64,000 nt of DNA, taken from contig NZ_FQUS01000008.1 in the NCBI RefSeq assembly GCF_900129315.1, positions 1 through 64,000 on the forward strand, in the 5' to 3' direction. The position numbers were made by a program, and so were the translations under genes. A model generated the notes under the pieces. That model worked only from the letters and a program-made list of their open reading frames with translations, ran no database searches and was not told the origin of the DNA. This document shows, in pieces, positions 5,364-42,194 of the stretch (position 1 is the stretch's first letter; the number at the start of each line of letters is the position of its first letter). This DNA comes from Fodinibius roseus. GTDB taxonomy: Bacteria; Bacteroidota; Rhodothermia; Balneolales; Balneolaceae.

Positions 5364-5388
5364 CCTAAGACAAACTCCGGAAAACCCC

Positions 5389-5958
5389 ATGCAAAGCATT
5401 ACAAGAACCTTTAAAACCGTATTTTCCGATCGGAGCTATCAAATTATCGGAGGCGTCAGCTTTGGGTTTTTCCTGTTGCTGTATGCCGTGACCCTTCCGG
5501 CCAAATATACGGCTGGGAGAATCGGCCTCGTTTCCCTGCAGCACCTGAGCTGGTCGATGGGCCTGTTTGCCCTGGCTTTTGCGCTGCTGCTTGGGGCCGT
5601 CATCCCCTTTACCGTATTTGCTTTCCGGCAGGGCGTAAAATCCCAAAAATCGTCAACGGCAGGCGGGCTGTTCGTCAGTATTCTCACGCCCCTGCTCTGC
5701 TGCTCGCCGTTACTGCCCGCATTGATGGGGTTTCTGGGAGGCCTCATCCCGCTGCTGCCGGCCGGAAGCTCCCTGGCCGTACAGAAGTTTGTGGTTACCT
5801 GGGAAACCGAAATCTATCTCGGCTCCTTGGCGCTGTTGGCGCTGGCGCTCTACCAAAATGCCAACTATATCGCAAGATCCGCGGCGTGCCGGATGCCTGT
5901 TCAGACTGTCAAAAAATCGAACGAACCCGACAGAGAGCAAGTTGTTAGAAACGAATAA
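5389..5958 (+). CDS. membrane protein with CCSPLLP motif, unknown function
   Basis: 189 residues from the ATG at 5389; an upstream in-frame start would overlap the preceding gene by about 100 bp and is unlikely. Four hydrophobic segments are visible. The third begins with TPLLCCSPLLPALMGFLGG, a vicinal cysteine pair at a membrane boundary like those of MerT, MerC and MerF. A metal-handling role fits the motif and the operon, but I do not recognise the family. Confidence 0.6.
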   Translation: MQSITRTFKTVFSDRSYQIIGGVSFGFFLLLYAVTLPAKYTAGRIGLVSLQHLSWSMGLFALAFALLLGAVIPFTVFAFRQGVKSQKSSTAGGLFVSILTPLLCCSPLLPALMGFLGGLIPLLPAGSSLAVQKFVVTWETEIYLGSLALLALALYQNANYIARSAACRMPVQTVKKSNEPDREQVVRNE

Positions 5959-5982
5959 TCATATCATTTTAATCAAGTTAGC

Positions 5983-10179: not shown

Positions 10180-11046
10180 CTAATGCGTTCCGGAGGGCTC
10201 AACCGGCAGGGGTTGGCAGCCATATCCCTGTTCAAGGGCTCTTTTTGAAAACCGGTATGCTTCTTCAATGATCATTTCAGTCTTGCTGAAATCCAGCACG
10301 CTCGTAAGACGGGTATTAATACAGAGATCCAAGAGGTACAGCTCTGTATTTGCAGCAATTTTTTGAATATCAGTTCTCAATTTTTCGTGTTGGCTGACTT
10401 GGGCAGTACGAATGATCATATTAAACAATCCATTTACCGTGTTTTTAAACTGGTGCCTGCAATCGCTCAACATGCAATAAATGGCATCTGCTCCCATCTC
10501 GTAAGCTTTGTCTATAGGAATATTGTTGGTAATACCTCCGTCCACCAATTGTCTCCCGTTCATTAGCTGGGGAGGAAAATAGACCGGAATAGCGCAGCTG
10601 GCCATCAGAGCGGATAATAGCGATCCATTGTCCAGATATACCGATCCTGCTTTTTGAAGATCGGTTGCGACCACTGTTAGCGGGATATTGAGCTCTTTAA
10701 AAGTATCAACTGGGAGATTCCTTTTTAGGAACCGTTTTATACCTGATGGTTTAAACAAACTGGAAGCATTGCCCCATCTCCATAGAAGCTCAGAGTTGAA
10801 TCGATAAAGTTTTTGTTCTGAAATTTCTTTCCAAAGCTCTTTTAAATGACTTATATCCAACCCAGATGCAATGAAAGCCCCGTTAATTGCCCCAATTGAA
10901 GTACCGATAATAAAATCCGGTTTTGCTCCATGTTCCACCATCGCTTGATAAAATCCGATTTCGGCCGCGCCCTGAGCCCCGCCTCCGCAGAGAACGAGGG
11001 CCGTTTTTTTAGATTCGGCGGGCATACTATTGATTGTCCCCATCAT
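10180..11046 (-). CDS. patatin-like phospholipase / lipid acyl hydrolase
   Basis: 288 residues. The oxyanion loop LCGGGAQGAAEIG, the nucleophile elbow GTSIGAING (GxSxG) and the aspartate motif DGGITNNIP give the complete Ser-Asp dyad of bacterial patatins. No signal peptide is visible, so it probably works in the cytoplasm or at the inner membrane. The start at 11046 overlaps the upstream cytochrome gene by 20 bp; an internal Met at 11025 would abut it instead. Probably co-transcribed with the cytochrome gene. Confidence 0.85.
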   Translation of the reverse strand: MMGTINSMPAESKKTALVLCGGGAQGAAEIGFYQAMVEHGAKPDFIIGTSIGAINGAFIASGLDISHLKELWKEISEQKLYRFNSELLWRWGNASSLFKPSGIKRFLKRNLPVDTFKELNIPLTVVATDLQKAGSVYLDNGSLLSALMASCAIPVYFPPQLMNGRQLVDGGITNNIPIDKAYEMGADAIYCMLSDCRHQFKNTVNGLFNMIIRTAQVSQHEKLRTDIQKIAANTELYLLDLCINTRLTSVLDFSKTEMIIEEAYRFSKRALEQGYGCQPLPVEPSGTH

Positions 11047-11950
11047 TTATCTTCAATTCTCCGGTATTCCACGGACGAGTTCGTTGGTTGTATCTTTTTG
11101 CAACCTGTATAACATCTTCCTGCGAAATTCTAGTTTGACTGCCTTCACTCTCGCCACGTAGATAATTTAGTATGGCAGCTATTTCTGCCGCACTTAATCG
11201 TGCCTTAAATGAGGGCATGCTGCCTTGATATTGTTGTTCTTGTACTTCAATCTCACCTTGTAGACCATGAAGTAAAATTCGGATGGGAACGGATTTATTG
11301 CCGGTGACCCACTCAGAATCGACCAGTGGTGGGAAAGCGCCCGATACCCCTTCTGCATTAGCTCCATGGCAGGAGGAACAGTTTTGAGAATATAGGTTTT
11401 CACCATTTAATAAGGCCGGATCCCCTTCCTCATTGAAAGGTGTCTCGCTAGGCTCATCCAGTCCGGGAATCATCCTTCTCATATTGCCATACTCTTCGGA
11501 GAGACGACGGTTCATCCGGGCCATATTTTGCTGGCCCATCCGCTGGTGCATTCGGGCCATCTGATCGTGCATGCCCATCATCTGGCTATACCACTCACCG
11601 GTCATATGACTCTGCATGTGCATGCCCATACCTTCAGCCATCATCTTATCGCCCTGCATATGACGCCCCATGTTGCCAGTCATCATTTGGCGGTGGCTGA
11701 CATCCATATCATCGTGCATTTTCTGCATCTGGTTGTAGAGCGATTGTAAGTCAGACGGCAGAGTGTCCATTGCGCCTTCATAGTTTGTCAACAGCTTTTT
11801 GTAATTAGATTGCAGAGAATCATAGGCGGTTTCTAATTCCTCCCGTTGTTCCTCACTCATATAGCCAGAGCCTCCCATTTGACATGAGGATAGAAAAACG
11901 AGGAGTCCTACTATTACCAGATAAAATCCAATGTCTTTTTTATTCATCAT
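11027..11950 (-). CDS. Met-rich lipoprotein with a C-terminal cytochrome c domain
   Basis: 307 residues with a lipoprotein signal (LVFLSSC, Cys ~23). Residues ~30-90 look helical/coiled. Residues ~90-160 are very rich in Met and His (repeats such as GNMGRHMQGDKMMAEGMGMH), as in periplasmic copper- or silver-binding proteins. A class I cytochrome c domain follows with the haem motif CSSCH near residue 190 and a probable Met axial ligand in GSMPSFKARLS. The combination suggests a surface metal sponge able to take part in redox of bound Cu. Follows the ATP-cone/glycoamylase gene by 52 bp and overlaps the patatin. Confidence 0.8.
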   Translation of the reverse strand: MMNKKDIGFYLVIVGLLVFLSSCQMGGSGYMSEEQREELETAYDSLQSNYKKLLTNYEGAMDTLPSDLQSLYNQMQKMHDDMDVSHRQMMTGNMGRHMQGDKMMAEGMGMHMQSHMTGEWYSQMMGMHDQMARMHQRMGQQNMARMNRRLSEEYGNMRRMIPGLDEPSETPFNEEGDPALLNGENLYSQNCSSCHGANAEGVSGAFPPLVDSEWVTGNKSVPIRILLHGLQGEIEVQEQQYQGSMPSFKARLSAAEIAAILNYLRGESEGSQTRISQEDVIQVAKRYNQRTRPWNTGELKINDGDNQ

Positions 11951-12002: not shown

Positions 12003-13532
12003 TCATAACCATCCGTTTCTAAATCCTGCTTTTTTTAATCCATTCACAAGATACCTGGATCCACGCATAAGCTTCCAGATCAATCCGGTCCTATAATTTT
12101 CGATCATCAAGACAACAGGCCCAAGATTGATACCATAATGATAAGAAGACGTCCACCCATCCCGGGTTTTTTGGTTATTGGGATAACTAAGATTGAAACT
12201 ACATCTCAGGCAATATTTCCCCGTAATCTGGGGATACACATCTTGGAAATTTTGGATGGTTGGCAATACAATTTCAGGGGCGAAGGGTAGTGAAGCGACT
12301 ACAGCCCACGGGGCAACCGTGCCATCATCGGGGCCGTAGGGTGCGCCACGGGCGATATAGCCAAAGAAGGAGCGTTCAATGCCGTTGACTTTTTTTGTGC
12401 TCCAACCCGGGCCGTCGCTGGCTGTTATTCCCCAGAAATTTTCTCCATAGCCTTGAAAATCCAATGGATTCCGTATGGCGTATTCGCGCTGGATATAGGT
12501 AGCCCGACGGCTGTTTTCAAAATAATCGAATCCCTTTTCTCGGGTAAACGCATCCTGGATACCACGAAAATCCACCCAGATGGGCGAATATTGGTGGATA
12601 AACAGGGGGCCGCCGTAGATGAATTCATAACCAAATATCTTTTTCCATTCATAGGAAGAAGTCCAGGCTTTGTAGCTTTCCTTCGGCAACGGTTGGGACG
12701 GAGAGCCAAGAGCAAGGAAGTACAGGAGTCCAGCCTCGTCATATCCTTCCCAACGATATGGCAGAAAGCCGTCCTCTGGTGTCCACCCGTGGGTGATTGT
12801 GGCCTTACCGTTGCAGGCCCATTTCCAATCGACACGGCGATAAATATCATCGGCCAGGGTACGTATTTCCTGTTCCTGTTTGGTATCGCGGTCAAAAAAA
12901 GCGGCAGCCAGAAGCATGCCAGCCAGCAGAATACCGGTATCGATCGTCGACAATTCGCACTTTCCAGCACGTTTCCCAGTCTTCATATCCAGAAAATGAT
13001 AATAGAAGCCTTTGTGTCCGGTAGCATTTGGAGCGGGACTTTGCTCGCTGGTCCAAAAAAAGCGCAGGGTGGATAAGGTACGTTGAATTGCTTCCCTTCG
13101 TGATATCCAGTCGCGTTCGACTCCTACCACATAGGCTCCTAGTGCAAAACCGACCGATGCTATACTGGCAGGCGAACCCAACTGTGAATTGTCTGCTACC
13201 AGCCCGTTATTCGGATTGGTTTCATGCAAGAAATAATCGAAAGCGTGGCGTTGCAACCTATCCAGTCTTTCACTATCAAAGTCGAGAGGTGGTTCGTGTT
13301 CTGTTGGTATTTTTTCGAATCGAATATTTTCTGATTTTTTGGGAAGCTGGCGAAATGCTTCTTCTGTTATCCTTTGGGTAGAAATACCATCATAGAGTTT
13401 ATCCTCTATAGCCTTAATTACCTGGTCAATCACTTTGGAATCAGCACCGGTAGCAACCAGCATACGGCGGAGCTTGGCCTTATTGAAAGGTTCTCTGTCT
13501 CCGGAGGCTTTGGTAACGTTGATAGTTTTCAT
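12003..13532 (-). CDS. ATP-cone domain fused to a glycoamylase (PF10091/GH144-like) domain
   Basis: 509 residues from the Met at 13532. Residues ~1-75 form an ATP-cone: INVTKASGDREPFNKAKLRR...LYDGISTQRITEEAF, close to the N-terminus of the protein at 17692-18543. Residues ~90-500 resemble bacterial glycoamylase proteins: RLQRHAFDYFLHETNPNNGL, GITASDGPGW and PEDGFLPYRWEGYDEA are recognisable segments. No signal peptide is visible, so unlike most family members it should be cytoplasmic. The fusion of a nucleotide-sensing domain with a glucan-hydrolase-like domain is unusual. Last gene of the AMP-phosphorylase operon proper. Confidence 0.75.
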   Translation of the reverse strand: MKTINVTKASGDREPFNKAKLRRMLVATGADSKVIDQVIKAIEDKLYDGISTQRITEEAFRQLPKKSENIRFEKIPTEHEPPLDFDSERLDRLQRHAFDYFLHETNPNNGLVADNSQLGSPASIASVGFALGAYVVGVERDWISRREAIQRTLSTLRFFWTSEQSPAPNATGHKGFYYHFLDMKTGKRAGKCELSTIDTGILLAGMLLAAAFFDRDTKQEQEIRTLADDIYRRVDWKWACNGKATITHGWTPEDGFLPYRWEGYDEAGLLYFLALGSPSQPLPKESYKAWTSSYEWKKIFGYEFIYGGPLFIHQYSPIWVDFRGIQDAFTREKGFDYFENSRRATYIQREYAIRNPLDFQGYGENFWGITASDGPGWSTKKVNGIERSFFGYIARGAPYGPDDGTVAPWAVVASLPFAPEIVLPTIQNFQDVYPQITGKYCLRCSFNLSYPNNQKTRDGWTSSYHYGINLGPVVLMIENYRTGLIWKLMRGSRYLVNGLKKAGFRNGWL

Positions 13533-13564
13533 AACGCTAATAGATGTTATCATGCTTCAGTCGT

Positions 13565-13870
13565 TTAGGTACCACAGAACTTCTTGTCAAATTGCTGTTT
13601 CCATCCATTCAAGTCTAGTATGTCTGCAACAGTTGAAATAGGCGGTTTTTCATAATAGGTGTCATCAATTGCAAGTACCGGCAAAATTAGCGGATTACCC
13701 AATACCGATACCAGCTGCTTAGCTTTTTCCGTATCGAACCGCAGGTCAATGAAGGTAAATGACCTCTGCTTCTCCCGCAGTAGATGAACCAGCTCGCGTA
13801 GGTAGTCGCACCACTCCTTGCAGTAAATGATTATCGTTGAATTTTCTTCGGGTTCCTTGCTAATCTCCAT
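13565..13870 (-). CDS. glutaredoxin-like thiol protein
   Basis: 101 residues. The start at 13870 is chosen because GAGGA lies 7 bases upstream; a longer frame begins at 13903. The fold pattern is thioredoxin/glutaredoxin: a beta strand STIIIYCKEWCDYLREL with a C-x3-C instead of the usual C-x2-C, then FTFIDLRFDTEKAKQL, then NPLILPVLAID (cis-Pro region). A second Cys is near the C-terminus. The altered spacing may change redox activity or create a metal site. Lies between prs and the ATP-cone/glycoamylase gene. Confidence 0.65.
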   Translation of the reverse strand: MEISKEPEENSTIIIYCKEWCDYLRELVHLLREKQRSFTFIDLRFDTEKAKQLVSVLGNPLILPVLAIDDTYYEKPPISTVADILDLNGWKQQFDKKFCGT

Positions 13871-13909
13871 AGTTTTTTCCTCGTTGTTCAGTTTCATATT
13901 CATCTTTTT

Positions 13910-14800
13910 TTAGTAAAAATTCGTGTTTTGAATAAAATCCACATAGAGCTTCTCAAGCCCTATTTGGTTAGAGGGATGAGGAATGGTATTGCAGGTTACA
14001 ATTTGTTTAGTCCCTGCATCCTGTAGTTCGTTGTAAGCATCACCGGCAAATACCGCATGAACACCGATACAAACGGGAGCCTTCATCCCGGCCCGTTCCA
14101 GATGGCCAACCGTCTCAATCATGGTACGGGCAGTGGAAATAATGTCATCCACCAAAACGGGCGTATGATCCTTGTATGTTTCAACCTGTGGTACCGAGAC
14201 TTCCACATCGCGGTCGCCGCGGCGGGTTTTCTCCAGGATAATGAACGGGGCGCCTGCATCTCGGGCTACCTCTGCCACCCACTGCTCGCTTTCACTGTCC
14301 GGACCGATTAGCACCGGTTGATCGATGTTGCTTTTTATCCAGTTGGATATATGGGCTGCGGCATGGACAATTTCCGTGGGTACGGAATAAATTTCAGCCA
14401 GTGAAGGGTGGCGGTGCAAATGTGGATCTACTGTAATCAGGGAGCGGGCAAACTGCGAAACCAGGGCCGCAAAATATTTCGAGGTGACGCCTTCCCCGGG
14501 CTTGAACTGCTTGTCCTGACGCATGTACGCCAGGTATGGGGCCACCAGACAAGTACACCGTCCGCCCAGGTTTTTGATGGTTTGAGACAAGAAATACAGG
14601 GGGAGCAGTTTACTGTCGGGACGATCCAGGCTGCAGACCAGGATGCACCTCCTGTTTTTCACATCCGATGCGACCCGGATATAGGTTTCACCGTCGGGAA
14701 AAGAACGGATCTCAGCCTGTCCGATTTCGGCATCAACCGATTGCGCAAGCGAGTCTGTCAGGGTTTCATTTCCGGGCAAAGCAAAAATAATCGGTTTCAT
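13910..14800 (-). CDS. prs: ribose-phosphate pyrophosphokinase
   Basis: 296 residues. Makes PRPP from ribose 5-phosphate and ATP. It has the N-terminal SFPDGETYIR segment, the catalytic-loop region VDPHLHRHPSL, and the PRPP-binding loop VLVDDIISTARTM. It is somewhat shorter than classical housekeeping enzymes (~310-320), as in archaeal-like or salvage-associated copies. It overlaps the upstream phosphorylase gene by 4 bp, so both are made together. Probably an operon-dedicated isozyme rather than the only PRPP synthetase of the cell. Confidence 0.9.
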   Translation of the reverse strand: MKPIIFALPGNETLTDSLAQSVDAEIGQAEIRSFPDGETYIRVASDVKNRRCILVCSLDRPDSKLLPLYFLSQTIKNLGGRCTCLVAPYLAYMRQDKQFKPGEGVTSKYFAALVSQFARSLITVDPHLHRHPSLAEIYSVPTEIVHAAAHISNWIKSNIDQPVLIGPDSESEQWVAEVARDAGAPFIILEKTRRGDRDVEVSVPQVETYKDHTPVLVDDIISTARTMIETVGHLERAGMKAPVCIGVHAVFAGDAYNELQDAGTKQIVTCNTIPHPSNQIGLEKLYVDFIQNTNFY

Positions 14801-16305
14801 GAGGTGATCTCCAGGATATTTGATTGCGATTGAACATACTCCAGGGCATATTTGAGGGTGCCGCGGGCTTCTGCGTGGATGGTTATCAGTGGCTGGCCTG
14901 TTTCGATCCTGGTATCGAGGGGCGTATGAAGCGTCAGCCCGGCCGTGGCATCATGCGGAGCGCCGGCCAGCTTGGCTATTTTTGCCAGCCGGCGATTATC
15001 AATGACTGAAACCGTTCCAGGGTGTTCTGCTGTAATTTCATGTGTGAATGGTGCGGTTCCGGGTTCACTGAACCCGCCTTGGGCTTCACAGATGGCATGA
15101 AACTTTTCCCACGCTGTTCCGTTTTTCAGGATGGATTCAGCTCTGCTTTCGCCTTCGCCGTGTGTAGCAAGCCCGGCAATTTCCAGCAGGCTTCCCGCCA
15201 GCAACAGGGCTCGCTGCTTTAAATCTTCGGGTGCATTCTGGCTGTTCTGCAATACCGCCAGAACATCCCGTGCCTCCAGCGCCGGACCGATACCGCGGCC
15301 CACAGGCTGGGTACCTTCGGTTTGGATAACTTCAACGGTCAGGCCGATGGCTGATCCTACCGAAGAGAAGTACCGGCTTAGTTGTTGTGCCGCTTCAGGA
15401 GTTCTCACCTTAGCGGTAGGTCCAACCGGGATGTCGATGATCACATGGGTGGAACCTGCTGCCGCTTTTTTGGACAGTACGGAGGCAATCATCTGTCCTT
15501 CGCTGTCAATATCCAGCGCCCGTTCCACCCCGATCAGAATGTCATCAGCCGGACTCAGCCTAACAGCCCCGCCCCAAACCACACAGCCGCCTTCCTGTTC
15601 CACCACTTTTCTTATATGGCCGATGGAAAGATCTACGGGAGCCATAGTTTCCATAGTGTCTGCCGTCCCGGCCGGGGAGGTGATAGCCCTGGAGGAAGTT
15701 TTTGGTATGGTAAGGCCAGCCGCAGCCGCAATGGCTACCACGATAGGCGTTGTCCGGTTACCGGGCAGTCCGCCCACGCAGTGCTTGTCGGCAATGATGT
15801 CGCGGGTCCAAGTAAGCTGTGATCCGGCCTTGATCATGGCCCGGGAAAGAGAAATGATTTCATTCAATTTTAGCCGGTCTCCGGCGCAGGCGGTAACGAA
15901 CGCGGAAAGTTCGGCCGTCGAATATTTGTGGTTGGCAATATCTGAGATGATATGCTCATAGGCTTCCGGCCCGAGTGTTTGCCCATATATTTTGGCCCGT
16001 ACCTTACTCATGGACCCGGCGGGCTGCAGGTGAGCAAACCTGATCGTATCGCCTTCCTGTGCATTCAGTTTGTTCCACGCACTTGTTGAGAGACTGGCCT
16101 CGTCATGGGCAAGAAGATCGGAATGAATTACATTCAGGGTGGCAATAATGGTTTTGTCCCCGACGGTTACCATCAGCCGGGTCAGGGCCGAAAATCCTTC
16201 GGAGATGCACACGGGACAGTCGGAACGCATATATACCACAAACTCTTTCCGAGTATCAATGCCAAGCCATTTTAACCTGAGGTTTGTAGTTTCTCCAGTA
16301 TCCAT
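14797..16305 (-). CDS. thymidine-phosphorylase family protein, AMP-phosphorylase-like
   Basis: 502 residues, with an N-terminal ~90-residue extension typical of archaeal AMP phosphorylases and related bacterial proteins, then the nucleoside phosphorylase II fold: VGGLPGNRTTPIVVAIAAA near the phosphate site, TSSRAITSPAGTADTMETM, and GGAVRLSPADDILI. AMP phosphorylases split NMPs with phosphate into base and ribose 1,5-bisphosphate. The adjacent prs gene and 4-bp overlap support a role in NMP ribose metabolism. Whether the substrate is AMP or a deoxynucleoside is not settled by sequence. Confidence 0.8.
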   Translation of the reverse strand: MDTGETTNLRLKWLGIDTRKEFVVYMRSDCPVCISEGFSALTRLMVTVGDKTIIATLNVIHSDLLAHDEASLSTSAWNKLNAQEGDTIRFAHLQPAGSMSKVRAKIYGQTLGPEAYEHIISDIANHKYSTAELSAFVTACAGDRLKLNEIISLSRAMIKAGSQLTWTRDIIADKHCVGGLPGNRTTPIVVAIAAAAGLTIPKTSSRAITSPAGTADTMETMAPVDLSIGHIRKVVEQEGGCVVWGGAVRLSPADDILIGVERALDIDSEGQMIASVLSKKAAAGSTHVIIDIPVGPTAKVRTPEAAQQLSRYFSSVGSAIGLTVEVIQTEGTQPVGRGIGPALEARDVLAVLQNSQNAPEDLKQRALLLAGSLLEIAGLATHGEGESRAESILKNGTAWEKFHAICEAQGGFSEPGTAPFTHEITAEHPGTVSVIDNRRLAKIAKLAGAPHDATAGLTLHTPLDTRIETGQPLITIHAEARGTLKYALEYVQSQSNILEITS

Positions 16306-16318
16306 TTTGTAGTATGTG

Positions 16319-17695
16319 CTAAAGGTTAAATTTTCTGATTTCGTACAGATCCGGTATCCGAACCTGCCATCCGAATACGTCTTTTAATTTTACCCGCAGG
16401 ATATCCGAAGCCTGGGGTTCGCCGTGAACGATGTACACCTTTTCCGGGGCTTCGGTGATATCGCCGGCCCAGTCCAGCAGTTCACGCTGGTCGGCATGAC
16501 CAGACAACCCCTGCAGGTACTCGACGCGTGCCCGTACCGGATAATATTTTCCGTAAAATTTTATTTCACCTGTTCCATCCAACAGTTGTCGTCCGCGGGT
16601 GCCTTCGGCCTGGTAACCCGCCAGCATCACGGTGGTTTCGGGCCGGCCTATATATTGCTGCAGGTAGGTGAGCACCCGTCCGCCGGTGACCATGCCGCTG
16701 CCGGCAATCACTATTTTGGGTTGGGGATCGTCGATAATATCCCACGTTTCTTTGAATGACTGAACCAGGCGGATTCTGCGGCACATCTCCGTACACTCTT
16801 GCGGGCTCAGGGTATGCCATTGGGCATGCTTGTGGAACAGTTCCAGCACACTGGCGCCCATCGGGCTGTCCATAATGACTGGCAGCGACGGAGGGATCTT
16901 GTTCTGGCGGTCCAGCTGCCAAAGCAGATACATCAGCAGTTGCGTGCGCTCCACGGCAAAGCTGGGGATGATCAGGGTACCGCCCTTTTCTGCCGTCTGT
17001 TGAACGATGCGCTGAAGCTTGACTTCTACATCTTCAACCGGATGGAAGCGATCACCATAGGTGCTTTCGATCAGCAGCACATCTGCTTTTTGGGGTTTTT
17101 GGGGTGCTTTCAACAGTGGATCAAGTATCCGACCTACGTCCCCGGAAAAAACGAAGCGCTTGCCATGGGCTTCGATTTCTATGAACGTTGCCCCAAGAAT
17201 GTGGCCGTTGTATTGGAATCGGACACTAATATCGTTATCAACAGTAATCCATTCGCCCTCCTGTTGATCTTCAAACAGGGGGAGCGTGCGTTCTACCTCG
17301 TCGGTATTGTAAAGCGGTACGGCAGGATCATGTTTAGTAAAACCTTTTTCATTAGCCCTTCGGGCATCTTCCTCCTGGATTTTCGCGCTGTCGCGGAGGA
17401 TGATTTCGGCGATGTCCAGCGTGGGAGCCGTGCCCCGGATCGGGGCGTTGTATCCCATCTTTACCAGGCGCGGCAAAAAGCCGGTATGGTCCATGTGCCC
17501 GTGGGTCAGCAATACGAAATCAATCCGGGAGACATCGAACGGGAGCTGTTGCCAGTTAAGCTGACGCAGTTTTTTGACGCCCTGGAACATGCCGCAATCC
17601 ACCAGTATGGTTTTACCCGGAAGCTCTACCAGGTATTTGGAGCCGGTTACGGTTCCGGCCGCTCCGAGGAAGTGTATGTTTGCTGAGCGTCTCAT
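16319..17695 (-). CDS. beta-CASP metallo-beta-lactamase, RNA-processing-exonuclease-like
   Basis: 458 residues. The metal-binding motif HGHMDH near residue 65, a second His region (YNGHILGATF), the aspartate in FSGDVGR, and C-terminal motifs GSGMVTGGRV and HGEPQASD are those of bacterial Ysh1/CPSF73-like beta-CASP nucleases. These enzymes cut or digest RNA. It overlaps the ATP-cone/nuclease gene upstream by 4 bp and precedes the AMP-phosphorylase by 13 bp, so an RNA-to-NMP role feeding the phosphorylase is a reasonable inference. Confidence 0.85.
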   Translation of the reverse strand: MRRSANIHFLGAAGTVTGSKYLVELPGKTILVDCGMFQGVKKLRQLNWQQLPFDVSRIDFVLLTHGHMDHTGFLPRLVKMGYNAPIRGTAPTLDIAEIILRDSAKIQEEDARRANEKGFTKHDPAVPLYNTDEVERTLPLFEDQQEGEWITVDNDISVRFQYNGHILGATFIEIEAHGKRFVFSGDVGRILDPLLKAPQKPQKADVLLIESTYGDRFHPVEDVEVKLQRIVQQTAEKGGTLIIPSFAVERTQLLMYLLWQLDRQNKIPPSLPVIMDSPMGASVLELFHKHAQWHTLSPQECTEMCRRIRLVQSFKETWDIIDDPQPKIVIAGSGMVTGGRVLTYLQQYIGRPETTVMLAGYQAEGTRGRQLLDGTGEIKFYGKYYPVRARVEYLQGLSGHADQRELLDWAGDITEAPEKVYIVHGEPQASDILRVKLKDVFGWQVRIPDLYEIRKFNL

Positions 17696-18543
17696 TGTTC
17701 AATGGTATTATAATTGCAGATAGCCCGTGCCTCTTTCAGGACCTTATTTTGCTGCCTGTTGTCCAGTCCCAACGGGTCAAGTATTTTATGGTCCTCACAT
17801 AACTGCATGCAGAAAACAACATTCTGTTCAAGCAGGAACTGTTTCTCTTCCTTGTGCAGGGTGGATAGGCACGTTATAGGATGTAAATTTACTTCGCTTA
17901 TGAGGTCCTTCAGTCCTTCGTGTTTGGGATAATCCCAGCTCAGCAGCTTCAGCCCGGCGCAGGTTCCGTATTGCAGGGCGTCTTCGGTAAAGCGGGTGTT
18001 GGTGACCACCCATCCACGGTGGCGTTTATTCCGATGGCCGGGTTGGGTGCTCCAGTTCTTCTCCACATCCTTGAAGCGGGACTGGATGTAAAGCGGGATC
18101 TTGACATTGCATTTGTGCCCTTTCCGGTTGTGAAATTTGCATTCTATCATGAAATGCTTGTTATCCTTCTCAGCAATCACATCAATTTCATGAGAAACAC
18201 AATTGCCTTCGACAATCACACCGGTTTGAGTTGTATATCCCAACCTGTTGAGCAGCTCTCCCACAAACTTTTCGAAGGGATAGCCGGTGGGACCCAGCTC
18301 CAGGATGGCTTCCTTTAACTTATACCGGCCGGCGGAACGGTCGGAAAGTTGACGAAGCAACCGGAACGCCTCTTTGTAAATTTTCTGCGTGGAGATGCCA
18401 TCATAAAGCATATCACTGACTGCCCCGGCAATTTTATCAATTAGTTGCTTTTCGGCTCCGGCGCTGGCCAAAGAGCGGCGCAGCTTGGACTCATCATAGG
18501 GTTCTTGCTCCCCGGAGGCCTTGGTGACGTTGATGGCTGCCAT
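17692..18543 (-). CDS. ATP-cone plus PD-(D/E)XK restriction-endonuclease-like protein
   Basis: 283 residues from the Met at 18543; a longer frame starts at 18579. Residues ~1-75 are an ATP-cone (INVTKASGEQEPYDESKLRR, LYDGISTQKIYKEAF). A helical linker follows, then a nuclease fold near residues 110-190 with EIDVIAEKDNKHFMIECK, the D...E-x-K triad of Mrr-like nucleases. The cone suggests control by ATP or dATP levels. First gene of the operon; its promoter lies about 100-140 bp upstream. The N-terminus is clearly related to that of the ATP-cone/glycoamylase protein. Confidence 0.8.
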   Translation of the reverse strand: MAAINVTKASGEQEPYDESKLRRSLASAGAEKQLIDKIAGAVSDMLYDGISTQKIYKEAFRLLRQLSDRSAGRYKLKEAILELGPTGYPFEKFVGELLNRLGYTTQTGVIVEGNCVSHEIDVIAEKDNKHFMIECKFHNRKGHKCNVKIPLYIQSRFKDVEKNWSTQPGHRNKRHRGWVVTNTRFTEDALQYGTCAGLKLLSWDYPKHEGLKDLISEVNLHPITCLSTLHKEEKQFLLEQNVVFCMQLCEDHKILDPLGLDNRQQNKVLKEARAICNYNTIEQ

Positions 18544-18649
18544 ATTTTTATCCAGTATCAGGGTTAAAAAAGTGTCCATTGATTACCGGCGACTGCCCTG
18601 ACATCTTTTTTTTATACCAACAGGTATCATGCCAAAGCATTACAGGGGT

Positions 18650-18683
18650 AATGTAATAGCGGCTTGCTTAAGAGAAGCTTAAA
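18650..18683 (-). promoter_or_regulatory. regulon promoter 1: direct repeat plus -10 (ATP-cone/AMP-phosphorylase operon)
   Basis: On the - strand: TTTAAG (18683-18678), 5 bases, CTTAAG (18672-18667), 11 bases, then TACATT (18655-18650) as a -10 box. The 11-bp repeat period is typical of OmpR/PhoB-type activators that bind in place of a -35 element. The architecture is shared with five other promoters in this window. Confidence 0.65.
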
Positions 18684-18717: not shown

Positions 18718-19389
18718 TTAGTCCGGCTTATCTGGAGCATTACCGGACCGTTGCAGAAACTGCTTCCATTGGCCTTTTGCCGGAAGGAAGGCCGGGACGT
18801 TCCGTTTGTACTGGAGATACTCTTCTCCAAACTCCTCGATCACTTTCTTTTCTTCCCTTTTGGCAAGCAAGACATAAGCGATAACGATAACGGGAAACAG
18901 GCCAACCGAGAATATGGTGGGCCAGTGAATGACGCCTTCTCCAAAAAGCCCGATAAAAAGGCCTGTGTATTGGGGGTGCCGCACCAGTCCGTACAATCCA
19001 TCCGTGGCCAGCCGGTCTTCCTCTTTTGCACGATAGAGTTGGCGCCAGCCCTGAATAAAAATGCCAAATCCACCAAAAAGAAGGATATAACCCACGATCA
19101 TTGAGATCATCATACCCGTTTCGCCAACCCCCACCAAGGTGGACCAAAGGTTGGCGTTTAGATCACCACTACCACTATCCAACCCCAGGAACCGGACCAT
19201 TAAGTATATTGTAAGCGGAAAGCCGTACATTTCTGCATATAAGGCAATAATAAAAGCTTGTATTAGTCCGGCACCGGCCCACTCGCGCCAGGTTTTTGGA
19301 GCCATGTATTTGTATAAAAGCCAGGAGGCGATAACGATCACAAAAAGCGCGATAATCCAGGCACCGGAGTGTTCAAATCCTCTTTCCAT
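18718..19389 (-). CDS. isoprenylcysteine carboxyl methyltransferase-like membrane protein
   Basis: 223 residues with about five membrane helices. The C-terminal half has the family signature: DGLYGLVRHPQYTGLF, then REEKKVIEEFGEEYLQYKRNVPAFLP, the SAM-binding pattern of ICMT/PEMT-like bacterial methyltransferases. Bacterial members modify small molecules or lipids and most are uncharacterised. It is downstream of the type II GAPDH gene (38 bp) and probably in the same operon. Confidence 0.8.
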   Translation of the reverse strand: MERGFEHSGAWIIALFVIVIASWLLYKYMAPKTWREWAGAGLIQAFIIALYAEMYGFPLTIYLMVRFLGLDSGSGDLNANLWSTLVGVGETGMMISMIVGYILLFGGFGIFIQGWRQLYRAKEEDRLATDGLYGLVRHPQYTGLFIGLFGEGVIHWPTIFSVGLFPVIVIAYVLLAKREEKKVIEEFGEEYLQYKRNVPAFLPAKGQWKQFLQRSGNAPDKPD

Positions 19390-19427: not shown

Positions 19428-20459
19428 TTAAATAAACCGTTGTGTAACACCCAGCGAACGGTTCGTTTTGCCAATCGATTTTTTGGGATTGGATTCTATG
19501 CCGGTTAGCGCCCGGATGGCATCGATGGTTTCGGGAATGACGATCGCCTGGTTATCGACCAGGTAGGCGTAGTAAAGCTCGTCTCCCTCCACTTTGAGCA
19601 TATCTTCCCAGATGGCCACCTCGTACATATCGCCATGCGGGCGTCCCAGGTCCAGCATCAGCTCCTTGACGGCATTGTTGGCCGAAAGGTCGTCGCTCAT
19701 GTTGATAAAAGCAGTTCGCGTTGAGGTGCCGAAAGCATCCAGTATTTCCTCCTTGCTGGCATCACGCGTGAGTTGAACCGTCCAGTAGTGCAGGTGCGAG
19801 AGCGTCTCCGGCACCTTCACCGCTGCGGTTACCACATCCAGTTCAGGGTCTACGCTCTGGGCATCCGGACCTTGGTGGCTGGGTATCTCCGGCTCGGGCA
19901 CCAGCGTATTCATGATGCCGTTTTTGTGGCTCTCCCACGGATCAGTAGCACGTCGCAGCAGTGTGCCACGTGCTTTGTTAAGCAGTCCCGCCCGTTTTAA
20001 TGCGCTCAGGGTCCTTACGATGGATGTGGTGTTGCAGGAGACTACGCGGGTCGCTTCTTTTCCCAGCGCTGATGCATAATTGTTTTCCGCGCTGAAGGAA
20101 TGCCCGGTCGTCTCATGTTTCTCCCCGCCCTGCACAATATACTTCACACCCGCTGCTTTATACCGTTCGGCATTTTGAGCACCGAATTTTTTTGGGGCAC
20201 AATCCACCACCAGGTCAGCGAGATCAAGCAGGTCGTCAAGATCGCCGGCTACCGGAATGTTCTCCTTCTTCATCGCCTCCCGGCCTTCTTCGGTATTGGC
20301 AAACACGGCATATCCTTTGGCAGCAGCCGACTTTATTCTCCAGTCGGCGGCTACATCGCCGATGCCGACCAGTTCCATATCTTCTTGCAGCGTTACTGCT
20401 TCCGCCACCCGTTTCCCGATGACGCCATATCCATTTACGGCTACATTAATTTTTTCCAT
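19428..20459 (-). CDS. type II (archaeal-type) glyceraldehyde-3-phosphate dehydrogenase
   Basis: 343 residues. The nucleotide-binding start VAVNGYGVIGKRVAEAV and the catalytic Cys142 in VVSCNTTSIVRT are those of archaeal type II GAPDH rather than the bacterial GapA (SCTTNC). Archaeal enzymes accept NADP as well as NAD and work in glycolysis or gluconeogenesis at the triose-phosphate step. It follows a SHOCT protein by 22 bp and precedes a methyltransferase-like gene. The archaeal-type family is consistent with horizontal acquisition; this is inference. Confidence 0.9.
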   Translation of the reverse strand: MEKINVAVNGYGVIGKRVAEAVTLQEDMELVGIGDVAADWRIKSAAAKGYAVFANTEEGREAMKKENIPVAGDLDDLLDLADLVVDCAPKKFGAQNAERYKAAGVKYIVQGGEKHETTGHSFSAENNYASALGKEATRVVSCNTTSIVRTLSALKRAGLLNKARGTLLRRATDPWESHKNGIMNTLVPEPEIPSHQGPDAQSVDPELDVVTAAVKVPETLSHLHYWTVQLTRDASKEEILDAFGTSTRTAFINMSDDLSANNAVKELMLDLGRPHGDMYEVAIWEDMLKVEGDELYYAYLVDNQAIVIPETIDAIRALTGIESNPKKSIGKTNRSLGVTQRFI

Positions 20460-20481: not shown

Positions 20482-20697
20482 TTATTTATTCTGTTTTAAA
20501 ATCTTTTTTCGTTCCTCAAATTCTTCGCGTTCAATTTCGCCACGGGCAAACCGCTTTTTTAAAATATCCAGGGCATCTTCGGTGGCGTCTGTCTTCGGCC
20601 GGTAGGGAATGACATTAAAAGCCGCCAGCAATATGATGGCTACGATGATAATCCACCAGATCCAGTGCATGCCTATAAAGTGATGATCGTAAAACAT
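20482..20697 (-). CDS. small SHOCT-domain membrane protein
   Basis: About 71 residues from the Met at 20697; the frame extends further upstream but would begin almost at the predicted promoter. One membrane helix (IWWIIIVAIILLAAF) is followed by a C-terminal SHOCT motif (ALDILKKRFARGEIEREEFEERKKIL). SHOCT proteins are short C-terminal helical hairpins of unknown function, common near metal genes. First gene of the GAPDH operon. A second SHOCT protein lies at 37379-37594. Confidence 0.75.
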   Translation of the reverse strand: MFYDHHFIGMHWIWWIIIVAIILLAAFNVIPYRPKTDATEDALDILKKRFARGEIEREEFEERKKILKQNK

Positions 20698-20770
20698 GGT
20701 GCTAAGGTGTTTTGTTATTATTGATGTATGCTGTGTCATTATCCGTCGGCTACAGCAAGGTGCTGTCAGT

Positions 20771-20803
20771 AAGATAAACAATGAGCCTTAAAACAAACTT
20801 AAA
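20771..20803 (-). promoter_or_regulatory. regulon promoter 2 (SHOCT/GAPDH operon)
   Basis: On the - strand: TTTAAG (20803-20798), 5 bases, TTTAAG (20792-20787), 10 bases, TATCTT (20776-20771). It lies 74 bp before the SHOCT start. The rest of the 320-bp gap to pfkA (20804-21017) shows no gene or clear signal. Confidence 0.6.
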
Positions 20804-21017: not shown

Positions 21018-21992
21018 TTATTTTAAATAGAACAACGTCAAAAGCTCTTGCAATTCAGCATCCACCTGGTGTTGTTTCACCACCTTTTCAAAAGGCGTCA
21101 GGGTCAGGGAATTATTTACAATTCCGGCCATTACGTTTTTTTGTCCCTCCAGAAGCGCCTTTACCGAAGCTACTCCCAGCCTGATGCCCAGCATTCGGTC
21201 GAAGGCTGAGGGATGGCCTCCCCGCTGCACGTGCCCCAGGATGCTTATGCGCAAGTCCACTGAAGGATTTACTTCCCTGATTTTTGAAGCGACCGGACCC
21301 ACCCCCAGTTCATCCCCTTCGGACACAATCACAATCAATTCTTCCTGGCTGTGATAGTGGCGGATCTTTTCCAACAACCGGTTAAAATCCTCACTACTCT
21401 CGGGGATCAAAATGCCATCAGCTCCCGTTCCCAGGCCGGAATGAATGGCAATGTAACCAGAGTCCCGCCCCATTACTTCTACCAGAAATACACGGTTATG
21501 CGATTCTGCCGTATCCCTTATTTTATCAATATTCTCGATAGCCGTGTTTACCGCTGTGTCGAATCCGAGGGTGTAATCCGTGCCGGCCAGGTCATTGTCA
21601 ATGGTGCCGGGTATCCCGATAAAGGGCAGTGTGCATAGCTCCGAAAAAGCCAGCATGCCGCGAAAGGTGCCATCGCCCCCAATGGCAATGAGGGCATCTA
21701 TCCCTTTTTTCTCCAGGTTTTTCAGGGCGGCTTTTCTTCCTTCCTCTTTGCGGAAGCGGTCGCTGCGGGCTGTCTTAAGGATGGTGCCCCCTTTGTGCAC
21801 GGTTCTTTGCAGGTCTTTTTCATTCAGGCTTATAAAATCACCGTCTATCATTCCTTCATAGCCCCTGGATACACCGCTTATCCTCATCCCATTTGCCAGG
21901 GCGGCTTTGGCGGCTCCATGCAGGGCTGCATTCATTCCGGGGGAATCGCCCCCGGAAGTGAAAATGCCGATATGTTTGATACGTTCACTCAT
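21018..21992 (-). CDS. pfkA: 6-phosphofructokinase
   Basis: 324 residues, the length of bacterial PfkA. It has GGDSPGMNA (ATP site), GGDGTF, the catalytic PGTIDNDL...GTDYTLGFDTA and EVMGRDSGYIA substrate segments. The glycine-rich GGDGTF fits the ATP-dependent rather than PPi-dependent type. It phosphorylates fructose 6-phosphate in glycolysis. It starts 39 bp downstream of the copB gene on the same strand and has no visible promoter of its own, so it is probably transcribed with the copper ATPase. Confidence 0.93.
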   Translation of the reverse strand: MSERIKHIGIFTSGGDSPGMNAALHGAAKAALANGMRISGVSRGYEGMIDGDFISLNEKDLQRTVHKGGTILKTARSDRFRKEEGRKAALKNLEKKGIDALIAIGGDGTFRGMLAFSELCTLPFIGIPGTIDNDLAGTDYTLGFDTAVNTAIENIDKIRDTAESHNRVFLVEVMGRDSGYIAIHSGLGTGADGILIPESSEDFNRLLEKIRHYHSQEELIVIVSEGDELGVGPVASKIREVNPSVDLRISILGHVQRGGHPSAFDRMLGIRLGVASVKALLEGQKNVMAGIVNNSLTLTPFEKVVKQHQVDAELQELLTLFYLK

Positions 21993-22031: not shown

Positions 22032-24095
22032 CTAAGCATCTTGTTGCTGCTCACTTTTTCTCATTTTCCCTTTAAGCAACTGTGCATTGATGGCTACGAT
22101 GATGGTACTGAGGCTCATAAACACAGCCGCCACAGCGGGACCCAGTACAAAACCGGTGGAATACAGCACCCCGGCCGCCAGCGGTATGGCAACAATATTA
22201 TAACCGGTGGCCCAGATCAGGTTTTGGATCATTTTTTTGAACGTTGCCTTGCCAAATAAAATGAGGCTGGCAATGTCCTGCGGGTTGCTGTTCACCAAAA
22301 TTATATCGGCTGTTTCTGCGGCAACATCGGTACCGGAACCTACGGCAATGCCAACATCAGCCTGTGCCAGTGCAGGAGCGTCGTTTACGCCATCTCCGGT
22401 CATGGCAACAAACTCTTTCTTGCCTTGCAGCTCTGTTACAATTTCCACCTTTTGATGGGGCAATACTTCTGAATAGTAACCGTCCAGGCCAAGTTTATCG
22501 CTTACTGCTTTAGCGGTTTTTTCATTATCTCCCGTTGCCATCAACACTTTTATTTTGTTCTTTTTGAATACCTGAATGGCCTCGAATGATTCTGGACGAA
22601 TCTCATCAGCAAGGGCGATATAACCTGACAATGTACCATCTATTAAAACGAAAACCACCGTTTCTGCGGCATCGCTGTAGGCGTCTTCGGGAATGGAAAT
22701 TTTTTCATCCCTCAAATATCCGGGGCTTACCACTTTTACTTTTTTACCCTCTACATCGGCTTCAACTCCTTTACCGGTAATGGCATTGAAATTTTCCGGT
22801 TTTGGTACGGTAACATTTTCTTCTTTTACTTTTTTGATAATACCAACAGCTATGGGGTGTTCCGAGCTTTGCTCTAAAGCGCTTGACAGGCGAAGGATTT
22901 CGTCTTTGGAATAAGCATTATCCACAGATTCAATCCGTGTCACCCCAAAGTCGCCTTTGGTCAACGTGCCGGTTTTATCAAATAACAATGCCGAGATTTT
23001 TCTGGATTCTTCAAATGCGGTTCTGTTACGTATAAGTAGTCCGTTTTGTGCAGAAATAGCTGTGGATATGGCCACTACCAGTGGAATGGCTAATCCCAGG
23101 GCGTGTGGACAGGCAATGATCATGACTGTTACCATTCTCTCCAGGGCAAATACAAAGGGATAACCCAGCATCAGCCATACTGCCAGGGTACCAAAACCAA
23201 TGGCCAAGGCGATATAGGTAAGCCATTTAGCCGCCCGGTCGGAAAAGTTTTGCATTTTGGATTTGGTTTTCTGCGCATCTTCCACCAGCTTGATTACCTT
23301 GTTGAGGTAGCTGTCTTTGCCGGTATGTTCTACTTTAACTTTTAGGGTGCTATTGCCATTTATGGAACCCCCTATCACTTTTTCGTTCAATTCTTTTTTA
23401 ACAGGTTTTGATTCCCCGGTAAGCATCGATTCGTTCAAATAACTGGAGCCCTCTGTGATTATACCATCGGCCGGTACTTTTTCGCCGGGCTTTATCAGTA
23501 TTACATCACCCTTTAACAGGTCCTCAAGTTTCACGTCTTCAATGGTGTCGCCCTTCACTCTGTGTGCTTCAGCCGGCAACATACTCACCAATAATTGCAG
23601 GGCTTTGGATGCGCCGAGTACCGATTTCATTTCCAACCAATGACCCAGCAGCATAATGTCTATCAAGGTGACCAATTCCCAGAAAAAATCTTCTCCTCTT
23701 AACCCAAAAACCGTAGCCGAACTATAAAAATAAGCCACACTTATAGCCATCGATATCAGAGTCATCATTCCGGGCCCTTTGGCTTTCATTTCGCCCCAAA
23801 AACCCTTCAAAAAAGGCCACGCGCCCCAGAAATAAACAAAGGAGGAGAGTGCAAAAAGGATATAGGAATTGCCGGGGAGCAGGTACTCATACCCAAAGAA
23901 TTCCTGGATCATCGGGGAAAAGAAAAGGATGGGAATGGTTATAATTGTTGATATCCAGAACCGTTTCCTGAAATCGGCAACCATCATTTTATGGTGGTCG
24001 TGGCCGGCCATTCCCATCGGTATTTCTCCGGACCCGGAATGATCCATTTTGGAATGGTCCGTTTTTTCATGGTTGTGCTGCTCGTGATTTTCCAT
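22032..24095 (-). CDS. copB: CopB-type copper-exporting P-type ATPase (copy 1)
   Basis: 687 residues. A His/Met-rich N-terminus (first ~40 residues) replaces the HMA domains of CopA. The membrane metal motif is CPHALGLA (CPH, diagnostic of the CopB/P1B-3 class). The A domain has TGES, the P domain DKTGTLTKGD and the hinge GDGVNDAPAL, and the N domain SSEHPIAV, so the enzyme is complete. CopB pumps copper (or silver) out of the cytoplasm. Preceded by regulon promoter 3 and followed by pfkA. A paralogue lies at 38977-41043. Confidence 0.93.
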   Translation of the reverse strand: MENHEQHNHEKTDHSKMDHSGSGEIPMGMAGHDHHKMMVADFRKRFWISTIITIPILFFSPMIQEFFGYEYLLPGNSYILFALSSFVYFWGAWPFLKGFWGEMKAKGPGMMTLISMAISVAYFYSSATVFGLRGEDFFWELVTLIDIMLLGHWLEMKSVLGASKALQLLVSMLPAEAHRVKGDTIEDVKLEDLLKGDVILIKPGEKVPADGIITEGSSYLNESMLTGESKPVKKELNEKVIGGSINGNSTLKVKVEHTGKDSYLNKVIKLVEDAQKTKSKMQNFSDRAAKWLTYIALAIGFGTLAVWLMLGYPFVFALERMVTVMIIACPHALGLAIPLVVAISTAISAQNGLLIRNRTAFEESRKISALLFDKTGTLTKGDFGVTRIESVDNAYSKDEILRLSSALEQSSEHPIAVGIIKKVKEENVTVPKPENFNAITGKGVEADVEGKKVKVVSPGYLRDEKISIPEDAYSDAAETVVFVLIDGTLSGYIALADEIRPESFEAIQVFKKNKIKVLMATGDNEKTAKAVSDKLGLDGYYSEVLPHQKVEIVTELQGKKEFVAMTGDGVNDAPALAQADVGIAVGSGTDVAAETADIILVNSNPQDIASLILFGKATFKKMIQNLIWATGYNIVAIPLAAGVLYSTGFVLGPAVAAVFMSLSTIIVAINAQLLKGKMRKSEQQQDA

Positions 24096-24317: not shown

Positions 24318-24351
24318 ATAATAAGAGATAGAAGCTTAAAACAAGCTTAAA
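24318..24351 (-). promoter_or_regulatory. regulon promoter 3 (copB-pfkA)
   Basis: On the - strand: TTTAAG (24351-24346), 5 bases, TTTAAG (24340-24335), 11 bases, TATTAT (24323-24318). Perfect copy of the shared architecture. It leaves a leader of over 200 bases before copB, which includes the 19-bp inverted repeat. Confidence 0.7.
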
Positions 24352-25713: not shown

Positions 25714-25761
25714 ATGTTCTTTTGTAGAACATACGAAGGTATTGCTGAAATAAAGCTTAAA
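25714..25761 (-). promoter_or_regulatory. regulon promoter 4 (small ORF and S2P protease) with overlapping palindrome
   Basis: On the - strand: TTTAAG (25761-25756), 5 bases, TTTCAG (25750-25745, one mismatch), 11 bases, TATGTT (25733-25728). The -10 box overlaps an inverted repeat ATGTTCT-TTTGT-AGAACAT (25714-25732), which could be a repressor site. Confidence 0.6.
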
Positions 25762-38574: not shown

Positions 38575-38608
38575 AACATACAACAACCTCCCTTAAAGCA
38601 ACCTTAAA
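38575..38608 (-). promoter_or_regulatory. regulon promoter 5 (DUF302)
   Basis: On the - strand: TTTAAG (38608-38603), 5 bases, TTTAAG (38597-38592), 11 bases, TATGTT (38580-38575). Perfect copy of the architecture, placed just after the PII-like gene stop. Confidence 0.7.
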
Positions 38609-41104: not shown

Positions 41105-41138
41105 ATTATAGGGAATTGAGGCTTAAATTAAGCTTAAA
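41105..41138 (-). promoter_or_regulatory. regulon promoter 6 (copB2-PII)
   Basis: On the - strand: TTTAAG (41138-41133), 5 bases, TTTAAG (41127-41122), 11 bases, TATAAT (41110-41105). This is the cleanest copy, with a consensus -10 box, about 60 bp before copB2. The remaining sequence up to the tRNA terminator (41139-41370) shows no gene. Confidence 0.72.
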
Positions 41139-42120: not shown

Positions 42121-42194
42121 TACGCCCGACAGGAGTCGAACCTGTAACCTACGGCTTAGAAGGCCGTTGCTCTATCCAGTTGAGCTACGGGCGC
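42121..42194 (-). tRNA. tRNA-Arg (anticodon TCT)
   Basis: 74 nt. The anticodon loop CTTCTAA is closed by ACGGC/GCCGT. The acceptor GCGCCCG pairs with CGGGCGT; discriminator A. Decodes AGA. Confidence 0.92.

Follow-up and report, generated by a model that had tools for sequence, protein, structure and literature searches.

The window analysed here is the whole of a 64,000-nucleotide stretch of Fodinibius roseus DNA (RefSeq assembly GCF_900129315.1, contig NZ_FQUS01000008.1, positions 1 to 64,000 of the forward strand). Its subject is a cassette of four minus-strand genes, in which two nucleases are followed by a nucleotide phosphorylase and a divergent ribose-phosphate pyrophosphokinase (Prs):

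17692..18579, minus strand: ATP-cone and Mrr-type (PD-(D/E)xK-like) nuclease, lead gene of the cassette (ATP-cone 3.1e-6, Mrr_cat 1.3e-8, AF1548-like_C 3.6e-7)
16319..17695, minus strand: beta-CASP metallo-nuclease with RMMBL domain (Beta-Casp 4.1e-31, RMMBL 6.2e-19, HGHMDH motif)
14797..16305, minus strand: nucleotide phosphorylase of predicted AMP-phosphorylase type, annotated in the thymidine phosphorylase family (profiles, residues, tree, fold)
13910..14800, minus strand: divergent Prs of PRK07199 type (NF005537 400 bits against a cut-off of 322)

The list of open reading frames (ORFs) bears out the positions, the 4-bp overlaps (17692-17695 and 14797-14800) and the 13-bp gap (16306-16318) given in an initial annotation of this DNA. 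The nuclease ORF reaches 18579, and an in-frame internal ATG at 18543 is its likely start.

The phosphorylase passes PRK04350 and TIGR02645, models named 'thymidine phosphorylase' and 'putative thymidine phosphorylase', and stays below the cut-off on TIGR02643 (141.8 bits), TIGR02644 (185.7), PRK05820 (193.4) and PRK06078 (138). The names of the two models passed decide little, because the two haloarchaeal AMP phosphorylases scanned (619 and 610 bits on TIGR03327, the AMP phosphorylase model) both pass them too. For residue comparison, five archaeal AMP phosphorylases were used (one PDB chain and four rows annotated on haloarchaeal plasmids, two of which were scanned and pass TIGR03327), together with 28 canonical enzymes from the host's kin, which were picked by motif and of which all five scanned pass TIGR02644 and PRK05820. 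At 54 diagnostic columns the phosphorylase agreed with AMP phosphorylase in 37 and with canonical thymidine phosphorylase in three, while the two reference groups agreed against the operon in four and all differed in ten; with gap-majority columns removed, the corresponding counts over the remaining 40 were 32, 2, 4 and 2. K202, S205, S210, K299, W244, N183 and P341 were found in all operon rows (88/88, from the loci described below) and all AMP phosphorylase rows (5/5), and in none of the 28 canonical ones. The canonical letters are M at 202 (26/28), G at 205, H at 210 and F at 299 (28/28), where the operon copies have K, S, S and K in 88/88, and K202 and K299 are candidate contacts of the 5'-phosphate.

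In an unrooted quick tree of 75 rows (42 of the 88 operon rows, 5 AMP phosphorylases and 28 canonical enzymes), a branch with 100% support splits the canonical enzymes from the rest, and the operon rows make up one side of another 100% branch; the AMP phosphorylase rows do not form one group. The closest PDB entries by sequence were 4ga5/4ga6 and 4ga4, of which 4ga5 and 4ga4 are titled AMP phosphorylase; we take 4ga5 to be Thermococcus TK0352, the nucleoside 5'-monophosphate (NMP, here AMP) phosphorylase of the pentose bisphosphate pathway. The predicted model of the phosphorylase (pLDDT 92.3) had 4ga5 as its best fold, with a TM-score of 0.90 over 501 columns, N-terminal domain included, and VIA-align, a re-examination of Foldseek's own match list, gave Z 47.0 and a root-mean-square deviation of 2.5 with 488 aligned residues (model residues 7-501). 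Thymidine/pyrimidine phosphorylase structures reached TM-scores of 0.67-0.73 in alignments that begin at about residue 93, and TrpD was the next fold family on the list. The passages of PMC9700705 consulted give AMP, CMP and UMP as substrates of the Thermococcus enzyme.

The operon enzyme thus resembles archaeal NMP phosphorylase in a near full-length fold with the N-terminal domain and in most diagnostic residues. It differs in standing with the other operon rows on a branch of their own, in scoring under the TIGR03327 cut-off, in having Cys for Ser at 176 (83/88 operon rows), in an N-domain DCxxC (a stretch that was partly pattern-selected), and in a host genome with neither a ribose 1,5-bisphosphate (R15P) isomerase nor a true RuBisCO partner over cut-off. 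Residues, tree and fold suggest a bacterial clade beside archaeal NMP phosphorylase, and together with the diagnostic columns they support the earlier view of an NMP-type rather than a deoxynucleoside enzyme. The nucleotide-ribose reading of the phosphorylase is well supported, and we think it very probable. Cysteines typical of the operon clade are located in the DCxxC of the N-domain (C30 in 75/88, C33 in 87/88) and at the phosphate loop (C176 in 83/88), and may form a redox or metal switch.

The 88 loci consist of the window, a congener genome (G001), six plasmid regions and 80 genome loci, and were scanned with our own profiles. The genome loci were retrieved through two peptide patterns and comprise the best 80 of 567 confirmed relatives; this retrieval is biased to close relatives and partly selects conservation at phosphorylase residues 26-33 and 211-218. 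The plasmid regions were hand-picked among 40 rows listed of 154 records, and later plasmid regions (L137-L146) stand outside the 88. Neighbour distances were taken solely between stop-to-stop frames of genes with a profile match, and a small gene lacking one would go unnoticed in between; several loci end at contig edges.

Among 97 genomes, the host counted, the phosphorylase exceeded its family cut-off in two, the host and G001. In the congener, the ATP-cone, beta-CASP, phosphorylase and Prs genes stand together (72, 75, 76 and 62% identity to the window proteins), and in the 40 kb around that cassette no further ORF matches any window ORF at E 1e-5. Across the 88 loci the phosphorylase was found in 88, Prs in 77 (one a fragment, L043), beta-CASP in 53, a P-type ATPase in 44, the ATP-cone gene in 26, CusA in 18, phosphoketolase in 14, acetate kinase in 12, type II glyceraldehyde-3-phosphate dehydrogenase (GAPDH) in 11 and 6-phosphofructokinase (PFK) in 5. 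Within 200 nt downstream of the phosphorylase, the next matched gene was Prs in 71/88 loci and acetate kinase in 5/88; the next matched gene upstream was beta-CASP in 39/88. The cassette is not a product of chance, because its four genes recur in the congener and phosphorylase-then-Prs in 71/88 loci, and the comparison of neighbourhoods that the initial annotation had proposed shows gene order conserved across phyla. Where the order varies the partners persist, as on Bradyrhizobium and Methylophaga plasmids, which carry phosphorylase-Prs-MBL.

Relatives of the phosphorylase occur in 154 plasmid records, in 113 of which a single place covers 80% or more of the query, and the 80 genome loci fall into Pseudomonadota (52), Bacteroidota (24) and four other phyla with one each. 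The phosphorylases of Porticoccus and two Alcanivorax loci are identical over the columns kept for the tree, and that of a Verrucomicrobia metagenome-assembled genome (MAG) falls among Flavobacteriaceae; such identity and placement form a pattern as lateral transfer would give. In Mantel tests of paired distances, r was 0.70 for phosphorylase and Prs and 0.80 for phosphorylase and beta-CASP, values that do not separate co-transfer from shared descent. An annotated Prs adjoins the phosphorylase in nine of ten bacterial plasmid regions inspected (the exception is Shinella). Nine of the ten also have annotated genes for copper or heavy-metal transport or for oxidases, and the Paracoccus region has only a 'heavy metal-binding domain' gene. 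The P-type ATPase count of 44/88 loci stands against a background of about 0.04 per 20 kb (88 PF00122 matches in 13 genomes, about 50 Mb), which was drawn from the host and its relatives with a different profile and not from the carriers themselves. We regard the conserved mobile module as real.

The host genome (5.08 Mb, 99% complete) and 34 further carrier genomes, selected from those of the 80 loci whose record titles do not say MAG, were searched for enzymes that use R15P; completeness of the 34 is not given. In the host, the best R15P isomerase match reached 218.9 bits against a cut-off of 314.1, and the protein concerned is MtnA (444.7 against 279 on the MtnA model). No true RuBisCO was found there: the one PF00016 match over cut-off is a 369-aa RuBisCO-like protein that scores 131 against 497 on the type III model. 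No PhnN exceeded its cut-off in the host, the candidate being guanylate kinase. These searches, which had been suggested at the outset for R15P isomerase, RuBisCO and PhnN, agree with the prediction that the archaeal NMP pathway is incomplete here. Among the 34 carriers, no R15P isomerase passed the cut-off (0/34, with untyped lower matches in 11), and PhnN passed in five. Most carriers searched would thus offer no known outlet for any R15P that is made. The non-carboxylating pentose bisphosphate pathway of halophilic archaea, as described in the parts of PMC9700705 consulted, is alike in using R15P without RuBisCO and unlike in requiring R15P isomerase, which is not over cut-off in the host or in any of the 34 carriers. 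The host has in addition a canonical thymidine/pyrimidine phosphorylase (C23, 560 bits on TIGR02644, PRK05820 also passed), a canonical Prs (C44) and phosphopentomutase, so the operon phosphorylase and Prs are not the cell's only copies.

The two Prs proteins of the host are told apart by profile: C44 has 162 bits on NF005537 and 386 on TIGR01251, and the operon protein has 189.5 on TIGR01251. The comparison of operon copies covered 77 rows, one of them a fragment, and for the N-terminal part it was made against 1u9y only. Like canonical Prs (1u9y, C44), the operon copies retain the residues that we take to be catalytic and those of the substrate loops, with FPDxE, RQD, H127, D168, K191, R193, D218, D219 and T226 kept in 76 or 77 of 77. 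Unlike it, they have a near-invariant set of their own, LHR 128-130, G166, E170, Q173, W174 and D196, and mostly R/H at 225 (69/77). The changed phosphoribosyl pyrophosphate (PRPP) loop, STARTM, had been considered disabling, an idea that was dropped because Arg or Lys is tolerated at this place in related folds and operon copies differ from one another in the residue. In our reading the product of the phosphorylase is passed to the Prs paralogue, which may act either as a PRPP synthetase on ribose 5-phosphate (R5P) or by transfer of the C1 phosphate from R15P.

A possible fate of the pentose phosphate is seen in seven of the 88 loci, where the phosphorylase, acetate kinase (AckA) and phosphoketolase (XFP) stand in one same-strand run. 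The order is phosphorylase-AckA-XFP-Prs with 4-bp overlaps in L069 and L081, AckA-XFP-phosphorylase-Prs in L091 and L116, and phosphorylase-AckA-XFP with Prs absent from the run in L070, L076 and L112; in L031, L032, L074 and L084 both AckA and XFP are present farther away.

Full-text searches of one literature library found no paper on the function of the module. Genes of the same three kinds, in one predicted operon, are bll3117-bll3116-bll3115 of Bradyrhizobium diazoefficiens, and what follows is limited to the parts of PMC9104804 and PMC6515984 consulted, in which passages located by locus tag name these genes only as table rows. At 0.5% O2 without FixK2, bll3117 was 6.6-fold and bll3115 30.6-fold lower, as were the phosphoketolase and acetate kinase genes bll2518-bll2517 (10.0- and 10.2-fold lower; PMC9104804). 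Under microoxia, transcripts of bll3115, bll3116, bll3117 and bll2518 rose 15.4-, 7.7-, 5.1- and 8.2-fold, and their proteins by log2 2.9, 4.4, 2.1 and 4.3 (PMC6515984, lenient list). The listed operon is unlike the window in having no ATP-cone gene and in showing low-oxygen control instead of the direct-repeat box described below; the likeness is one of gene kinds, and a related Bradyrhizobium septentrionale plasmid shows the same order. FNR-type boxes numbered 36 in the 80 loci against 9.6 expected (five shuffles each), were confined to 16 loci and were not found in the window. One lies 204 nt before beta-CASP in L097 and one 76 nt before the L091 phosphoketolase ORF, yet inside the acetate kinase ORF, and most lie elsewhere than before cassette genes. 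Low-oxygen control of these loci is only hinted at, because so few of the boxes precede cassette genes.

In the window, a direct repeat with an 11-nt period, TTTAAGC-N4-YTTAAGC, was first spotted by eye at 18666 and 24334, and connects the cassette with copper genes:

18666..18683, minus strand: direct-repeat box before the cassette; this site and that at 24334 served to build the pattern
20786..20803, minus strand: direct-repeat box with two mismatches, before the SHOCT, type II GAPDH and methyltransferase genes
22032..24095, minus strand: copper-type P-type ATPase (TIGR01511 612 bits against a cut-off of 397)
24334..24351, minus strand: direct-repeat box before this ATPase, the other site from which the pattern was built
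38977..41043: second full copper-type P-type ATPase, with the box at 41121 upstream
41121..41138, minus strand: direct-repeat box before the second ATPase

The remaining three window boxes are at 25744, at 38591 and, by a tRNA gene, at 42193. At up to three mismatches the window holds seven boxes against 0.20 expected, two of the seven having been used to build the pattern. Genome-wide, eight were found at up to one mismatch, three in the window and five on contig C47, and none in the reversed control. On C47, four of the five lie within about 220 nt before a complex-I-like cluster, an NhaA antiporter run, a cyclopropane-synthase gene and an MMPL-type transporter, and for the fifth (49134) the nearest following gene of the same strand is over 600 nt away. 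A GlgC-like gene, a heavy-metal ATPase and an MFS-like gene have weaker sites in front of them. A direct repeat of this period before metal genes is what a metal-responsive OmpR/PhoB-type regulon would have. The cassette and the copper ATPases appear to have a common operator-like box, and metal may be the signal for it. The earlier proposal of a tie to copper genes is supported, though a shared operator-like box describes it better than a shared promoter. Those other loci that span 5 kb or more gave no match to the box (0.67 expected), so it is specific to the host. As a separate observation, C47:28634-53806 is a second box-bearing cluster, with GlgC-like, isoamylase-like, NhaA, cyclopropane synthase and metal ATPase genes.

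Taken together, we read the cassette as a laterally moving, stress-induced module that burns nucleotide ribose, with a probability of about 0.5 when the steps through Prs and the energy yield are included. The beta-CASP enzyme, judged by its family, would degrade RNA to 5'-NMPs, and the phosphorylase, judged by residues, tree and fold, would convert NMP and phosphate to base and R15P. The divergent Prs may then connect R15P with R5P, a step suggested by its linkage and by the absence of known R15P users from most of the carriers searched. Where phosphoketolase and acetate kinase genes lie alongside, the pentose phosphate would pass to those enzymes, and in the host it would enter the ordinary pentose-phosphate/glycolytic route with the neighbouring PFK and type II GAPDH, so that ATP could be gained when metal or low oxygen hampers respiration. 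The ATP-cone nuclease would be an ATP/dATP-responsive nuclease belonging to the cassette. This amounts to a putative archaeal-type NMP phosphorolysis in bacteria, minus the known downstream enzymes. The energy-stress setting is well supported and in our view likely. A bolder form, which we consider doubtful, holds that the Prs paralogue is in vivo no PRPP synthetase and moves the C1 phosphate of R15P to AMP or ADP (R15P + AMP -> R5P + ADP); with the NMP phosphorylase it would constitute a third pentose-bisphosphate pathway, free of isomerase and RuBisCO, that feeds RNA ribose to phosphoketolase-acetate kinase ATP production and has spread on metal-resistance elements as an emergency energy kit.

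Several observations weigh against the nucleotide-ribose module. The phosphorylase reaches 482.7 bits on TIGR03327, below the cut-off of 535, and the two models that it passes are those named for thymidine phosphorylase. Beta-CASP was not seen in the available DNA of 35/88 loci, and the host genome has no match to phosphoketolase, so that ribose there would take the ordinary pentose-phosphate route. In the parts of PMC9104804 and PMC6515984 consulted, the Bradyrhizobium signal is low oxygen and not metal, and bll3115-3117 and bll2518 are outside the earlier direct FixK2 list and unchanged or not induced in bacteroids (PMC6515984). The available DNA of 11/88 loci has no Prs match, in L043 Prs is a 97-residue piece on the opposite strand, and the L076 acetate kinase (5244-6470) opens with a stretch like the Prs N-terminus (15/28 identical), apparently a leftover from a phosphorylase-Prs operon that lost its Prs. 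An obligate role of Prs is weakened by these three findings, and a variant route through Prs, of the kind implied by the initial annotation, stays putative, given the 11 loci without a match.

Ordinary nucleoside salvage, in which the phosphorylase acts on (deoxy)nucleosides, phosphopentomutase yields R5P and Prs makes PRPP for base salvage, fits the NCBIfam names, and the host's phosphopentomutase would give ribose 1-phosphate an outlet. It is nevertheless unlikely: the host already has canonical thymidine phosphorylase and Prs, residues and fold favour AMP phosphorylase, and why RNase, phosphoketolase and acetate kinase accompany it is left unexplained. The tie to phosphoketolase and acetate kinase, from the linkage and from the part of PMC9104804 consulted, also tells against AMP removal or base exchange, where Prs would run forward (R5P + ATP -> PRPP + AMP) and the phosphorylase destroy AMP, or both work toward nucleotide synthesis, so as to rebalance pools under stress; Prs does retain the residues of an active synthetase, but R15P would still be without known use in most carriers searched, and we hold this reading quite unlikely.

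If the phosphorylase instead used pyrophosphate, as its relative TrpD would in reverse, it would give PRPP, from which Prs and AMP could form R5P and ATP. The pairing with Prs would then be explained without any R15P enzyme, and TrpD is the next fold family on the list; this reading is improbable, because no residue evidence points to a pyrophosphate site and the closest characterised relative, in the passages of PMC9700705 consulted, is an NMP phosphorylase yielding R15P. The least probable of all is a defence island, in which a nuclease and nucleotide-destroying enzymes kill infected cells. The ATP-cone/Mrr nuclease and beta-CASP genes suit such a role and the nuclease has weak PADLOC matches to the CARF-PDDEXK and ZorD models, but at E 0.01 PADLOC gave no match for the phosphorylase or Prs and one weak match for beta-CASP, and the metabolic neighbours and published low-oxygen induction point away from defence.

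If the nucleotide-ribose module is true, genes named thymidine phosphorylase and PRPP synthetase would represent a nucleotide-ribose pathway of archaeal type that plasmids and islands have taken into several bacterial phyla, sugar-phosphate enzymes on metal-resistance islands would be explained, and a function would be offered for the Bradyrhizobium operon induced under microoxia. It also raises the biochemical question of how bacteria dispose of R15P without isomerase or RuBisCO.

The same-strand run extends to both sides of the cassette, on the preceding side as far as the copper-type P-type ATPase at 22032-24095, with gaps of 138 and 236 bp among the preceding genes:

10180..11046, minus strand: patatin-like phospholipase, overlapping the cytochrome gene (ORF and family scan)
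11027..11950, minus strand: cytochrome c protein, 52 bp past the glucoamylase gene (ORF and family scan)
12003..13553, minus strand: partial ATP-cone (residues 11-64) fused to a PF10091 glucoamylase-family domain (265-498)
13565..13903, minus strand: small glutaredoxin-like protein (glutaredoxin/mycoredoxin models, scores below their cut-offs)
18718..19389, minus strand: methyltransferase-like gene, preceding the cassette (family scan)
19428..20459, minus strand: type II GAPDH (NF003251 456 bits), recurrent neighbour in 11/88 loci
20482..20781, minus strand: SHOCT gene, preceding the cassette (family scan)
21018..21992, minus strand: PFK, recurrent neighbour in 5/88 loci

The family names given earlier agree with the scans, apart from the glycosidase, which is a PF10091 'putative glucoamylase', and the redox gene, which stays below the glutaredoxin/mycoredoxin cut-offs. 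Both genes are present, as had been described, but they do not end the operon, since cytochrome c and patatin continue the run, and the glucoamylase ATP-cone is partial. Over 68 residues of its N-terminal part, the glucoamylase protein is 54% identical to the ATP-cone of the nuclease encoded five genes upstream, which looks like a domain copied inside the operon. Relatives of the glucoamylase sit on similar plasmid islands; on a Polaromonas plasmid, phosphoketolase, acetate kinase and transketolase are consecutive, followed by 6-phosphogluconate dehydrogenase on the opposite strand and, two more genes beyond, a window-like glucoamylase.

For the beta-CASP protein, the best NCBIfam models were type VII Cas14 and aCPSF1, both below cut-off, and a type VII CRISPR identity was ruled out by 356 bits on the Cas14 model against a cut-off of 800. 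Elsewhere in the window, a mercury resistance group lies near the left end of the contig (1562-4287; ArsR-type regulator, MerT and mercuric reductase with HMA domain), and 32564-33535 encodes a 323-aa piece of a P-type ATPase, whose two domains are partial and which is probably what remains of a gene.

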